From: a virus
IMG/VR virus record: IMGVR_UViG_3300027833_000044
Span: 1 to 64,000 of that record
DNA: 64,000 nucleotides
Strand: one strand, 5' to 3'
Shown here: positions 22,795 through 30,158 of the stretch, one piece after another
Layout: each line of letters begins with the position of its first letter
Position numbering within the stretch: the first letter of the stretch is position 1
The notes under the pieces: generated by a model
Databases searched by the model: none
What the model saw: only the letters and a program-made list of their open reading frames with translations
What the model was told of the DNA's origin: nothing
Position numbers and translations under genes: made by a program

Positions 22795-23069
22795 TGGCAG
22801 ATAGACTTATGAAAGGTGGGTGTATGGTCGAAAAGACTGACCTACCTGAGATGAATGGGTATCAACTCATTTATAAATTTGATAATGGTTACGGTGCATC
22901 TGTAGTCAAACACGATATGTCTTACGGTAATAAACTTGGACTGTATGAACTTGCAGTACTTGACAGTGATGGTGGGTTGTGTTATACTACCCCTATAACT
23001 GAAGATGTTGTCGGTCACCTAACAATGGGTGACGTTGATAAATTACTTGTAGAGATATCACACCTATGA
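22794..23069 (+). CDS. Small conserved-looking protein, unknown
   Basis: The 91-residue protein has the pattern GYQLIYKFDNGYGASVVKHDMSYGN, then LGLYELAVLDSDGGLCYTTPI, a beta-sheet-rich fold of unknown family seen in phage early regions. ATG 22794 overlaps the previous stop and the end overlaps the next ATG by 4 nt, so it is part of a coupled early operon. No function is assigned. Confidence 0.65.
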   Translation: MADRLMKGGCMVEKTDLPEMNGYQLIYKFDNGYGASVVKHDMSYGNKLGLYELAVLDSDGGLCYTTPITEDVVGHLTMGDVDKLLVEISHL

Positions 23070-23617
23070 ACATATTCCATTTAGACAAAGACCCTATACT
23101 TGCCGCACAGATGATGTGTGACAAACACGTGGTCAAGATGGTCACTGAGTACGGTCAGATGTTGTCTACCGCACATCGTGTACTAGATGGTGAGTTGTAT
23201 ACAGACAAGACCAAGAATGGTCGTAACATCAAACGATGGAGACTGAGAGGTGCTGCACAAGAAAAAGACTTGTACAAAGCATCACATGTCAATCACCCGT
23301 CCAACATATGGATACGTGAGAATGCAGAGAACTACCGATGGTTGTTCAAACACTTCCAAGCAACTGCGAAGGAGTATGAGAAACGATACGGACGTGTACA
23401 CATGACCTATGATAAACTAGGTGGTTATGTATGGTTTGCACCACGTAATATAAATTTAGTCGGAAGACTTACAAAGTTCGCACAAGCAATGCCTGAGTAT
23501 TGCAAACGTGAAGACCCAGTAGAAGCATACCGTTTCTACTATATAAATGAGAAGGTAACATTCGCAAAGTGGAAGAACGTTGAGACACCTCAATGGTTCA
23601 CTGAAGGAGTAGCTTAA
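23066..23617 (+). CDS. Conserved phage protein with CDKHVVKM motif, unknown
   Basis: The 183-residue protein begins MNIFHLDKDPILAAQMMCDKHVVKMVTEYGQML; the D-x-D-P and C-D-K-H-V-V-K-M block is one I recall in hypothetical proteins of phages and large viruses. It continues with STAHRVLDGE, a helical NHPSNIWIRENAENYRWLF segment and a C-terminal RFYYINEK. The conserved His/Cys/Asp cluster suggests an enzyme or metal site, but the function is unknown. It is followed immediately by 23618. Confidence 0.7.
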   Translation: MNIFHLDKDPILAAQMMCDKHVVKMVTEYGQMLSTAHRVLDGELYTDKTKNGRNIKRWRLRGAAQEKDLYKASHVNHPSNIWIRENAENYRWLFKHFQATAKEYEKRYGRVHMTYDKLGGYVWFAPRNINLVGRLTKFAQAMPEYCKREDPVEAYRFYYINEKVTFAKWKNVETPQWFTEGVA

Positions 23618-26043: not shown

Positions 26044-26073
26044 AAAAGGGGACTCTTCGGAGTCCCTTTTTTT
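26044..26073. terminator. Bidirectional terminator with TTCG tetraloop
   Basis: GGGACTC-TTCG-GAGTCCC (26049-26066) with an A run before and seven T after. It ends the gene 32 transcript and, read from the other strand, the gp29-IscU-IscA transcript; its T run overlaps the IscA stop codon. Confidence 0.9.
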
Positions 26074-26401
26074 ATGGGAGAGGGTCGAATCCTATTGAAA
26101 CACCGCATCCACAGGACGAAACTTCTTTAGGGTTTATTATCTTGAAGTATTCGTTAAGACCTTCTTTAGTCCAATCTAGAGTACACTCTTCTAAGTAAGG
26201 TAATGACTCTTCATTAATAACTATACTAAACTTACCATAGTCGAATGCAACATCGTCTTCGTTAGACTCATCTGCATATTCGATAACATATTCAAAACCA
26301 ACGCATCCACCTGAAGTAACACCAAGACGTATTAACTTCATATGTCTGTCTTCGGTTCTCTGAATACATTTCTGTACTGCTGCGTCTGTTATTTCAATCA
26401 C
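26072..26401 (-). CDS. A-type Fe-S carrier (IscA/ErpA/HesB-like)
   Basis: The 109-residue protein has the three conserved cysteines: C33 in SGGCVGFEY and C97/C99 in SSCGCGVSIGF. The surrounding strands match the A-type carrier fold. These proteins accept iron or [Fe-S] clusters from IscU and deliver them to target proteins. Its gene overlaps iscU by 4 nt and sits at the end of a late tail operon. HesB-type genes are known in marine phages; a neighbouring IscU is less usual. Confidence 0.92.
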   Translation of the reverse strand: MIEITDAAVQKCIQRTEDRHMKLIRLGVTSGGCVGFEYVIEYADESNEDDVAFDYGKFSIVINEESLPYLEECTLDWTKEGLNEYFKIINPKEVSSCGCGVSIGFDPLP

Positions 26402-26877
26402 TCTATGAAGTCCTCTCGTTCGAGTGGTGGATTATTATGACCTATCATTGATTGGTCTAGGATAGGATGTGTGTAGTCCTTTTCGTTCTTTGTCTCATAG
26501 TCTACCATCGCTTGTTTGATAGCATCTTCTGCTAGTACACTACAATGTAATTTGATTGGGGGCAATTGTAGTGCATCTGCGATATCTTTGTCTTTGATTA
26601 GTTTTGCTTCCTCGACTGTCTTACCCATCATCATGTCTACGAACAATGACGAAGATGCAATTGCACTTCCACATCCGTAAGTCTTGAATTTTACATCGAT
26701 GATTTTATCTTCATCGTCAAGTAAGAGTTGTAGTTGCATGACATCACCACATGCGGGAGCACCCGCAAGTCCTGTCGCAACCTTGGGGTCTTTTCTATCT
26801 AAACTTCCAACGGAATGTTTTTGAGGATTTGCAAGAACGGCTTCGAATCGTTTTACTACTTCTTCTGAATATGCCAT
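26398..26877 (-). CDS. iscU: Fe-S cluster scaffold protein IscU-like
   Basis: The 159-residue protein carries the scaffold ligands C43 and D45 (GAPACGDVMQL), C69 (TYGCGSAIASSS) and H111-C112 (LPPIKLHCSVLAEDAI). The Leu-Pro-Pro-x-Lys segment is the HscA/HscB-binding motif. About 25 extra residues at the C-terminus (YTHPILDQSMIGHNNPPLER) extend beyond typical IscU. The ATG overlaps the stop of gp29 by one base (TAATG), so it is translated together with the tape-measure protein. A cluster for a phage or virion protein is a likely purpose. Confidence 0.92.
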   Translation of the reverse strand: MAYSEEVVKRFEAVLANPQKHSVGSLDRKDPKVATGLAGAPACGDVMQLQLLLDDEDKIIDVKFKTYGCGSAIASSSLFVDMMMGKTVEEAKLIKDKDIADALQLPPIKLHCSVLAEDAIKQAMVDYETKNEKDYTHPILDQSMIGHNNPPLEREDFIE

Positions 26878-28544
26878 TATGCAACCCTGTCTAAGTCATC
26901 TGTAGCGGGTGAAGAGTCACCATACACTGCTTGACTACTTGAGTTAGTTGTGTTAGTTGTTGTTGATGGTGCAATCACTGTATTACCCGCAGATTGTTTT
27001 GCTTGGAGTTCTTCTAGTGCAGTCTGGAGTTTCATTATACGTTCTTCCGTAAACTTTGCACCTTTACTGTCACCACGACCTTGTTCATTATATGTACTCA
27101 TACGGTCTTGATTAATTTTTAGGTGTCTCTTGTAACGTTCTTCGGTTGCTGCCATTATATCTTGTTCAGACTTAGGAGCTCTTTTTGTTTCTTTATAATC
27201 AAATCCGTCTTCGTCTGTGCCTCTCATTTCATGAAAGTCATCATCCTGAACCATAACTTTGGGTTGAGGTGTTGGTTTAACAACATCTTTCTCTACTTGA
27301 GGTTTTACTCTACCTTGTTTGATTTCTTTTACTTCTGGTTCTTCTTCGTCACCACCAAATCCAAAGAATGATGCAATCTTACTAGCGACACCACCAATTG
27401 CATTCTTGACCCAGTCAATCGCACCATTAAATACTGACGCAATTCCCATGAACAAGTCCATGATACCATCTTTGAAACTAAACGAGTCTAGTATTTCAGA
27501 GAAGTTTTCGAATCCTAGTTTACCCGCAATCCATGAGATAGCAGCTTTCAATAGGTCAAGTGGCATACCAATTAGTCCACCAAGGACACCACCGACTGCA
27601 CCAAGGATACCACCAAGGATACCTTCTTCAGCGAATCCAGAGATTGCACCTTTGATACCATCAATGATACCCATTATTAAAGTAAGAGGTGCGAAGATTA
27701 CTCGACCTAGTGATTTGAATATTGTAAAGACAGGTGACAATGCACCTTTCAATGCACTAAATGTTCCACCGAATATTTTAAAAGCACCAAGGAAAGACTT
27801 AATTCCACTACCAATTCTTGAGAATATTCCACCCACTGCTTTTGAATCGCCACCAATAAGGTTTGTGAGAGGACGAAACATGTTTCCAATATTAGTCAAA
27901 CCACTTTTAAACGTGTTACCAATCTTATACATTCTCTTCATGAAGTTTGATGTACCAGTAACGGGTTTGCCATCAACACCCAATCCAACCATTGCATAGA
28001 TTGACTTTGATATTCCAGACATTGTTGTTCTTATTCTTAGAATAACATTACTCTTCATACCCATAAGTTTGGAAAGATTTGGGCCAAGTTTACCATCTGG
28101 TGTCAACCCAACCATCTTATATAACCCTGTTCGGAGTGTACTAGTGACAAGTTTAAATCCTTTTGTCATTTTTCCACCGACCAAGTCATCAAACATTTGA
28201 CCTAGAGCTAAAAGATATTTACCAAAACCTTGGGTTAAACCAACTGCAAGACCAGTAAGAGCAGCACCAATCGCACCAAGGAATCCCATAAGACCCATTC
28301 CTGCCGCATCTTTAAATCCCTGTACTCCTGCACCAAACTCATCTCTAGTAGGTTTCTTACCACCAACCTTTTCTCGTTTCTCTTCGAGTTTGTCGCCTGC
28401 CGCATTTGCCATAGATTTAAAGTATTGTGCAAAGGACTTATTCAGAGTAGCGAGTTCACTAATCTGTTTTTCGTCTCTCTTTTCACTTTTAATACCTTCA
28501 ATCTGAACTGCTTCAGTAAGGTGTGCTATGGTTAATTCTGCCAT
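26877..28544 (-). CDS. 29: Tail tape-measure protein (gp29-like, baseplate hub)
   Basis: The 555-residue protein has a charged helical N-terminus, a long middle rich in Gly/Ala hydrophobic helices (for example AAGMGLMGFLGAIGAALTG, and GGILGAVGGVLGGLIG), repeated M-V-G-L-x-x-D-G-K units, and a polar Ser/Thr C-terminus. Length is close to T4 gp29 (590), suggesting a tail slightly shorter than T4. It sits after gp26 and its extension, as expected for a tape measure following its chaperones. Tape-measure proteins fix tail length and are ejected during DNA delivery. Confidence 0.8.
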   Translation of the reverse strand: MAELTIAHLTEAVQIEGIKSEKRDEKQISELATLNKSFAQYFKSMANAAGDKLEEKREKVGGKKPTRDEFGAGVQGFKDAAGMGLMGFLGAIGAALTGLAVGLTQGFGKYLLALGQMFDDLVGGKMTKGFKLVTSTLRTGLYKMVGLTPDGKLGPNLSKLMGMKSNVILRIRTTMSGISKSIYAMVGLGVDGKPVTGTSNFMKRMYKIGNTFKSGLTNIGNMFRPLTNLIGGDSKAVGGIFSRIGSGIKSFLGAFKIFGGTFSALKGALSPVFTIFKSLGRVIFAPLTLIMGIIDGIKGAISGFAEEGILGGILGAVGGVLGGLIGMPLDLLKAAISWIAGKLGFENFSEILDSFSFKDGIMDLFMGIASVFNGAIDWVKNAIGGVASKIASFFGFGGDEEEPEVKEIKQGRVKPQVEKDVVKPTPQPKVMVQDDDFHEMRGTDEDGFDYKETKRAPKSEQDIMAATEERYKRHLKINQDRMSTYNEQGRGDSKGAKFTEERIMKLQTALEELQAKQSAGNTVIAPSTTTNTTNSSSQAVYGDSSPATDDLDRVA

Positions 28545-28548
28545 TGTC

Positions 28549-28734
28549 TTATCCGTTTTGGTTTTTCATTCGTTCTTCTTGTTCTTTAAGATATTCTTCT
28601 AGTAATACTAGGTAAATCTCCCTCTCCCATGGCATCATATGTTCTATGTCATACAATGAATAATTAAAGTGTTGCATTAAAGCAAAATTGGTCTTAAAAT
28701 GGTTGACCAAATTATCATGCGAGAGGCATATTAA
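28549..28734 (-). CDS. gp26 C-terminal extension in the -1 frame (probable frameshift product)
   Basis: After the eight-T run ending gp26, the -1 frame is open for 61 codons to TAA at 28549-28551, 4 nt before the tape-measure ATG. It encodes LVNHFKTNFALMQHFNYSL then DIEHMMPWEREIYLVLL and EEYLKEQEERMKNQNG, a helical domain I recall from marine T4-like tail-hub proteins. There is no start codon near its beginning; an internal ATG at 28675-28677 has no Shine-Dalgarno sequence and would give only 42 residues. A -1 shift on T-TTT-TTT would fuse it to gp26. Alternatively it is a separate gp51-like gene. Confidence 0.6.
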   Translation of the reverse strand, partial: LICLSHDNLVNHFKTNFALMQHFNYSLYDIEHMMPWEREIYLVLLEEYLKEQEERMKNQNG

Positions 28735-29441
28735 AAAAAATCTTGAAGACCCTCCAGAGTTACTTTATTCTCGAATCCACATTCGCAAGTGAATTCAACG
28801 TCTTTTTTCATTACTGGAACAGTCTTTAAAAACTCTCCAACTTTTGTAAACTGTATGTTTGTCATTGAATCAATAAACTCAGCCAGTTCTTTCTTACTTA
28901 CATCTGATACAAGGTGGTGTTCATCATCTGTCATGATTGAAATCATACAATCTTCAATCATCATGAATCCAAACTCCGCTTCGGAGACACCTTCACGGAA
29001 GTTCTTTACGAATCCATCGTAAGTAGGATATCTTAATTCAATAGAGATATCATCTGTAATCTGAACCACATTGTCTACATCTTCTTGTTTTGTAACTTCG
29101 AGAGACGATAAGTCAATATCAACGTCTGTCCTTTTGTCACATCCTTCATCTTCGCATTTAAAGTGTAGGGTTGATGATTCACCAACCGACTTACTACGAA
29201 TCTGAGTGAACATGTACTCAACATCAAATGTTGCAAGTTCGCTTGTTTTGATATCATCATTCACACATGCAACAACCGTGTCAACCATTGCCCTCATTGC
29301 CTGCTTTTGGTCTTGTGACTCAAACGCAGAGAGAAGAAGTTTCTCCTCTTTGACCAAGTATGGTCGGTACGTGACAACTTTGTCACTAGATGGAATCACC
29401 ATCTCATATTTTAGATTTTGATTTAACTTAGGTAGTGCCAT
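28731..29441 (-). CDS. 26: Baseplate hub protein gp26-like
   Basis: The 236-residue protein starts at ATG 29441, preceded by GGAGAATATA (a TTG 12 nt earlier is ignored). It begins MALPKLNQNLKYEMVIPS and follows the T4 gp26 baseplate family layout. It includes a zinc-finger-like pair of Cys pairs: CEDEGCDKR near residue 95 and CECGFENKVTLEGL near the C-terminus. gp26 is needed for assembly of the baseplate hub. It ends at TAA right after a run of eight T in the mRNA sense, where a frameshift extension begins. Confidence 0.75.
   Translation of the reverse strand: MALPKLNQNLKYEMVIPSSDKVVTYRPYLVKEEKLLLSAFESQDQKQAMRAMVDTVVACVNDDIKTSELATFDVEYMFTQIRSKSVGESSTLHFKCEDEGCDKRTDVDIDLSSLEVTKQEDVDNVVQITDDISIELRYPTYDGFVKNFREGVSEAEFGFMMIEDCMISIMTDDEHHLVSDVSKKELAEFIDSMTNIQFTKVGEFLKTVPVMKKDVEFTCECGFENKVTLEGLQDFF
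28733..28740 (-). other. Eight-T slippery run at the end of gp26
   Basis: The coding strand reads GAT-TTT-TTT-TAA. Pairing in the -1 frame is perfect (TTT-TTT to TTT-TTT), which is ideal for -1 ribosomal slippage and also prone to polymerase slippage. Confidence 0.6.
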
Positions 29442-29456
29442 TATATTCTCCAAATA

Positions 29457-30158
29457 TTATAAAAATTTCCTAATCAGTTCACCCGCAAGACCTTCAACAA
29501 AGTCGTTGCCCACACGGTCACCCTTTTTGGACTTCCAGTTCTTGTACGATAATTGTACCGTAACTTCAAGTAACTGTCCGTCATCACTCAACGCAATTTC
29601 ACTTAATGTTGTTGGGTATGCTTTATCTAGGACTAAAGTATAAGTGATATCGTCTCCGAATACCGCATTTAAGTCAAACTCACCCTGTGCAAGGTCGAGT
29701 GGCCCTAGTCTTGGTAATCTTCCACGTATAGAGGAAGGTATCTTACCAGAATCAAATAATTTCTTTTTCTTTATAGGGAAAGCAACACCCTTTTTAATGT
29801 GTTGTATAATAACTGGATGTGTGTAATCGTTAAAATACCCTACTTCTTTAGTATCTGAATTCACTGCTTGTGATTGCCACAATTCAAAGTACTCTCTTAC
29901 ACCCATGTCATTAAGACAATGAAACGTGAGTGTTACGTCTTCTACTGCATAACCATATGCAACTTTGGTTACGTCAAGACCCATAGGTCTTTCTGTAGAA
30001 AGGATTTGTCTGCCAGGCAATGACGCTGCTTTACATAACAAGTTTAAGTTACGTGCATCGCCCTTGATAGGTGGTAAGAAAATCTTATACAGATTTCCCA
30101 TTGCCAGTCCGCCACCAGAACCAACCGATGATTTAAAATCGTCAATACGAATTGCCAT
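29457..30158 (-). CDS. 54: Tail-tube-fold baseplate protein (gp54/gp19-like)
   Basis: The 233-residue protein starts MAIRIDDFKSSVG and has the tail-tube family pattern LYKIFLPP, LLCKAASLPGRQI, the Y-x-V-E-D-V-T-L-T-F-H strand and VREYFELWQSQ, which matches gp19/gp54-type tube proteins. Position next to gp26/gp29/gp48 favours gp54, the junction between baseplate and tail tube, rather than the main tube protein. ATG 30158 overlaps the previous gene by one base. It is read from the minus-strand late operon. Confidence 0.7.
   Translation of the reverse strand: MAIRIDDFKSSVGSGGGLAMGNLYKIFLPPIKGDARNLNLLCKAASLPGRQILSTERPMGLDVTKVAYGYAVEDVTLTFHCLNDMGVREYFELWQSQAVNSDTKEVGYFNDYTHPVIIQHIKKGVAFPIKKKKLFDSGKIPSSIRGRLPRLGPLDLAQGEFDLNAVFGDDITYTLVLDKAYPTTLSEIALSDDGQLLEVTVQLSYKNWKSKKGDRVGNDFVEGLAGELIRKFL

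Follow-up and report, generated by a model that had tools for sequence, protein, structure and literature searches.

In phage lambda, the tail assembly chaperone pair G/GT depends on a -1 shift at the heptamer GGGAAAG, and in P2 the slippery site of the pair E/E' is TTTTTTG. A 2016 review still treated T4 as an exception to conserved G-T frameshifting (PMC5009743). A frameshift chaperone reading for T4-like phages was put forward in 2022 by Vladimirov, Gautam and Davidson, whose study is cited in PMC10885494 and PMC12846349; in the parts relayed there, poly-T is given as the -1 signal of TAC-N genes in such phages (PMC12846349), and some of these phages are said to have a short gene plus a second, longer fused gene, with no frameshifting (PMC10885494).

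We examined the gp26 locus of a virus in this light, using the term window for the whole stretch of DNA that was analysed (64,000 nt). Gene 26 of this marine T4-like phage very probably encodes the short chaperone, with minority slippage at T_TTT_TTT, itself probably aided by an upstream Shine-Dalgarno (SD)-like element, yielding a predicted long form of 297 aa (Table 1).

Table 1. Features of the gp26 locus and its immediate neighbours in the window
Feature	Position	Strand	Remarks
gp26 ORF, short form, tail assembly chaperone (TAC-N)	28731..29441	-	236 aa
SD-like GGAGGG	28750..28755	-	9 nt 5' of the slippery heptamer
Slippery heptamer T_TTT_TTT	28734..28740	-	gp26 stop TAA (28733-28731) directly 3'
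Short hairpin UAUGC-CUCUC-GCAUG	28716..28730	-	right after the gp26 stop; fold prediction
-1 frame extension (TAC-C), gp51-like C-terminal domain of the long form	28549..28734	-	61 codons
Predicted frameshift product, long form (TAC-NC)	28549..29441	-	297 aa; inferred, predicted protein only
Tape measure protein (gp29-like), next gene downstream	26877..28544	-	555 aa; from position and weak phrog matches
Tail-tube-like protein (gp54-like), next gene upstream	29457..30158	-	phrog_45 tail tube, E 2e-31

The 3' end of gp26 reads CAA GAT TTT TTT TAA, with the run of eight T (T8, 28740-28733, minus strand) that an earlier note on this DNA had pointed out. The extension begins at 28734 (TTA), its stop ends at 28549 and the tape-measure ATG lies at 28544, leaving a gap of 4 nt, just as that note had placed its 61-codon -1 frame. 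Together, gp26 and the extension sit between the tail-tube-type and tape-measure genes, all on the same strand, and the same-strand neighbours also include head closure (gp4) and DNA end protector (gp2) genes. The tape measure gene matched several tape-measure phrogs weakly (best named one, E 1e-9). The junction lies just before the tape measure gene in the window and in relatives, which supports the note's placing of a -1 shift at the lambda-type genome position. Among the 110 ORFs of the window (stop-to-stop, at least 90 codons), only gp26 has an XXXYYYZ heptamer in frame close to its stop and can also be extended by 50 or more codons in the -1 frame.

Beyond the tape measure gene, two iron-sulphur assembly genes follow directly (26072-26877, minus strand). 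One matches an IscU/NifU-type scaffold (PF01592, E 1e-39), the other an A-type carrier (PF01521, E 4e-15), and both look like members of the same operon as the tail genes. Further along, on the plus strand, the product of 23066-23617 is possibly a pyrimidine-dimer glycosylase, judging from a Pyr_excise match just above its cut-off (PF03013, E 3e-6).

Among 80 IMG/VR loci, isolate cyanophages, a pelagiphage and a methylophage, the extension occupies the -1 frame in every locus whose sequence spans the junction. The arrangement is also found in phiM9, RL2RES, DLP6, XZ1, D486, Aeh1, Marzo and C48C1, and reaches the Ackermannviridae at about 20% protein identity. Thus the genome comparison proposed in the earlier note finds all three features conserved: the run of T, an open -1 frame and the place before the tape measure. 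For codon-level statistics, we used 37 divergent relatives whose gp26 ends in a Phe pair (FF), having removed members at least 90% similar; these statistics ignore the remaining relatedness. All 37 keep T_TTT_TTY (T_TTT_TTT in 24, T_TTT_TTC in 13), and in all of them the codon before the Phe pair ends in T. Moreover, TTT encodes the first Phe of the pair in 37/37, as against 60% of Phe codons elsewhere in the same genes (binomial 5e-9, ignoring relatedness). By this measure of codon usage, the heptamer is preserved by codon choice. Several relatives have a stop in the -1 frame only two codons ahead of the gp26 stop, and there the shift must therefore occur within the T run. Five loci (L096, L100, L101, L102 and L103; Vibrio D510 and VPALA, Ackermannviridae) keep the -1 extension and have CTT TTC, ATT TTC or GTT TTC near the stop in place of the FF heptamer, so that another slip site or re-initiation must serve there.

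The extension itself bears the marks of a translated sequence: its pN/pS is 0.21 in the -1 frame, versus 0.86 and 2.5 when the two alternative frames are read, and across 16 extension pairs the substitutions at codon positions 1, 2 and 3 of the -1 frame number 155, 70 and 291. This pattern of substitutions is that of a protein evolving in the -1 frame under strong protein-level selection.

The two forms could also be joined at the level of the transcript, if RNA polymerase were to add a base within T8, putting gp26 and the extension in frame in part of the mRNA. In the window and its near relatives, eight T in a row is in principle long enough for such polymerase slippage. However, the 13 relatives with TTTTTTC have only six T and the same extension, and phiM9 and RL2RES have TTTTTTG; what is conserved is thus the register of the ribosomal heptamer and not the length of the homopolymer, which disfavours polymerase slippage and makes it an improbable source of the long form.

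Even less probable, in our view, is that the extension forms a small gene of its own (gp51), whose translation would depend on re-initiation or coupling once ribosomes have reached the gp26 stop. It is annotated as a separate CDS in S-SSM5, S-RIM32, phiM9 and others, and some relatives carry TAATG or TGATG at the gp26 stop. Yet no ATG, GTG or TTG occurs in the first codons after the slip in 27 of the 37 divergent relatives, a set that counts the window among its members. The first candidate starts in the window's -1 frame are a TTG at codon 9 (28710) and an ATG at codon 20 (28677); no Shine-Dalgarno sequence was found upstream of either, and both fall inside the conserved domain of the extension. 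The earlier note's view that the extension lacks a usable start, its internal ATG having no ribosome site, is therefore upheld, with the TTG as an addition. Likewise, the Mosig and Melnitz-1 annotations begin the extension so late that its domain is truncated, and re-initiation would not need a heptamer conserved at the codon level. In phiM9, RL2RES, XZ1, D486 and Marzo, an ATG in the -1 frame overlaps the gp26 stop, and re-initiation could accordingly contribute there. Five loci (L089, L091, L092, L098 and L104) combine TAATG or TGATG at the gp26 stop with a retained T6 slippery site, and a double mechanism is possible in these.

The homopolymer of eight at the junction also invites the idea, raised in the earlier note as an error of 7 or 9 T, that a sequencing or assembly indel splits one continuous gene, but this has practically no standing: the identical T8 junction in >20 independently assembled contigs from other samples excludes an assembly error, about 80 public contigs share the arrangement, as do many isolate genomes, with protein identity falling as low as about 20%, and the TTTTTTC relatives argue against a homopolymer artefact.

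With ribosomal frameshifting on the heptamer as the preferred reading, we looked at elements that could stimulate it. With the criteria of PMC4066793 for the distance at which an upstream SD promotes -1 shifts in E. coli, we found an SD-like element in 31 of the 37 divergent relatives, versus 17.8 expected from synonymous resampling; none of 500 trials reached 31 (maximum 25; relatedness ignored). The six that lack it are L067, L071, L072, L090, L104 and L105. The Glu codon within the element is GAG in 21/23 cases, versus 34% elsewhere (P 3e-8, relatedness ignored). Taken alone, the window's element is unremarkable, arising in 79% of synonymous resamplings. Across the family, these resampling and codon counts indicate that the element is kept by codon choice, and GGAGGG is probably a stimulator of -1 slippage, acting through pairing with 16S rRNA.

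Downstream of the slip site, a 5-pair hairpin directly after the stop was compared across 19 near relatives: each pair is conserved in 74-100% of them, and one pair varies on both sides. The hairpin is not kept in more distant relatives and is a possible weak stimulator in the near clade only. Folding across relatives revealed no downstream RNA structure conserved family-wide: individual stem-loops looked good, but their register differs between clades, and we therefore claim no conserved downstream stimulator. An Rfam search gave no match.

These elements suggest the following course of events. A minority of ribosomes on GAT TTT TTT TAA would slip back one base, with tRNA-Phe in the P and A sites re-pairing with UUU UUU, probably helped by the upstream GGAGGG. 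The slipped ribosomes would then read LICLSHDN... for 61 codons, giving a long form that continues as ...QDFF-LICLSHDNLVNHFKTNFALMQHFNYSLYDIEHMMPWEREIYLVLLEEYLKEQEERMKNQNG. By analogy with lambda G/GT, the N-part may coat the tape measure protein, the rare C-terminal domain may recruit tail-tube subunits, and both forms would leave the finished tail. We infer the slippage itself and its rate, as well as the SD effect and the binding partners.

The identity of the two parts was addressed by profile searches. gp26 matches PF12322 T4_baseplate (E 3e-54) and phrog_150 baseplate hub (E 2e-56), and for the extension the hits are phrog_634 'baseplate hub assembly catalyst' (gp51; E 5e-25) and the end of phrog_150. 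When profiles were compared (hhalign), window-type gp26 aligned with T4-type gp26 (E 7.5e-28) and with the N-part of T4-type gp51 (E 4e-14), and the two T4-type proteins aligned with each other (E 1e-18). The extension aligned with the C-terminus of T4 gp51 (residues ~202-249; E 1.8e-9), and gave no alignment with T4-type gp26. These profile matches show homology among the window gp26, T4 gp26 and the N-terminal part of T4 gp51; T4 gp51 would thus be the natural long form and T4 gp26 the short form. Vladimirov et al. reportedly name these same two genes for T4. The earlier note's equation of the extension with gp51 stands in part: the extension does belong to the gp51 family, through phrog_634 and the gp51 C-terminus, but T4 gp51 corresponds to the whole long form. 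Its proposal that gp26 and its extended form are the T4-like counterpart of G/G-T is supported by the gp26/gp51 homology, the conserved junction and the genome position.

The 64-kb record and each of four related contigs (92-149 kb) hold one gp26 match only, and the extension likewise has a single match in each of the four contigs. A T4-style second gene (separate short and fused long) was not found in these five sequences, which may be fragments.

We also modelled the fold of gp26, using the window and IMG/VR sequences (mean pLDDT 84.7). The top PDB match of the model was HK97 gp13 (2OB9; Foldseek E 0.56, prob 0.85), covering only the N-terminal ~90 residues, and VIA-align returned Z 7.9 for 3FGX and 7.2 for 2OB9, the next being 4.3, all below 8 and again over the N-terminal ~90 residues. 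According to PMC9603447, 3FGX and 2OB9 are both tail assembly chaperones of phages. The predicted model thus shows a moderate resemblance to known tail assembly chaperones, which, being limited to the N-terminal part, we count as supportive and not as proof. A sequence search of the PDB returned nothing relevant, and a Pfam Stealth_CR2 match of the extension, below its cut-off, was taken as chance. Of note, two Cys pairs of gp26 (C96/C101 and C219/C221) are invariant in near relatives and partly lost in several cyanophages; these pairs suggest a zinc ribbon.

Taken together, these results suggest, family-wide, that in marine T4-like phages a single tail chaperone gene with a frameshift has been annotated as two, 'baseplate hub' and 'baseplate hub assembly catalyst'. 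The short 'gp51' of cyanophage records is the C-terminal domain only, and entries in which the C-part is missing, or appears as its own gene starting at an internal codon, would need correcting. Public annotation omits the extension in ACG-2014i and metaG-MbCM1, and an internal codon serves as its annotated start, cutting the domain, in C48C1 as in Mosig and Melnitz-1; the loci with annotation problems are L002, L003, L004, L097 and L105. A wider reading, which we offer tentatively and would not favour over its negation, is that T4-like phages of the marine/cyanophage branch rely on a compact signal of bacterial type (an SD-like element at about -9, T_TTT_TTY, and a stop directly or one codon after) without conserved downstream structure, and that some lineages add a stop-overlapping ATG, combining frameshifting with re-initiation as an intermediate toward T4's separate genes.

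Compared with described systems, the window phage shares with the T4-like TAC-N systems of the 2022 study, as far as these are relayed in the citing papers, a short and a long form and a poly-T slippery site; unlike that set, in so far as it is described there, it is an uncultured marine phage. Given that publication, the observation at gp26 is correct but not new in kind; the additions made here are the tests at codon level and the SD-like sequence upstream of the heptamer. Lambda G/GT has a different heptamer, whereas the window phage has T_TTT_TTT with the stop directly after. P2 E/E' resembles the locus, by description, in its contractile tail, its -1 shift before the tape measure and its T-rich slippery site. 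E. coli dnaX likewise has an SD-like element about 10 nt 5' of its heptamer; its heptamer differs, and the window phage is without a strong conserved downstream hairpin. T4 genes 26 and 51 have homologous parts in the window phage, yet in T4 they are separate and divergently transcribed. As these homologies are read, T4 carries its short and long forms on two genes, whereas the window phage and its relatives have a single gene with a predicted frameshift, which supports an explanation of the old T4 puzzle, namely the role of gp26 and gp51 and the apparent absence of a frameshift in T4.
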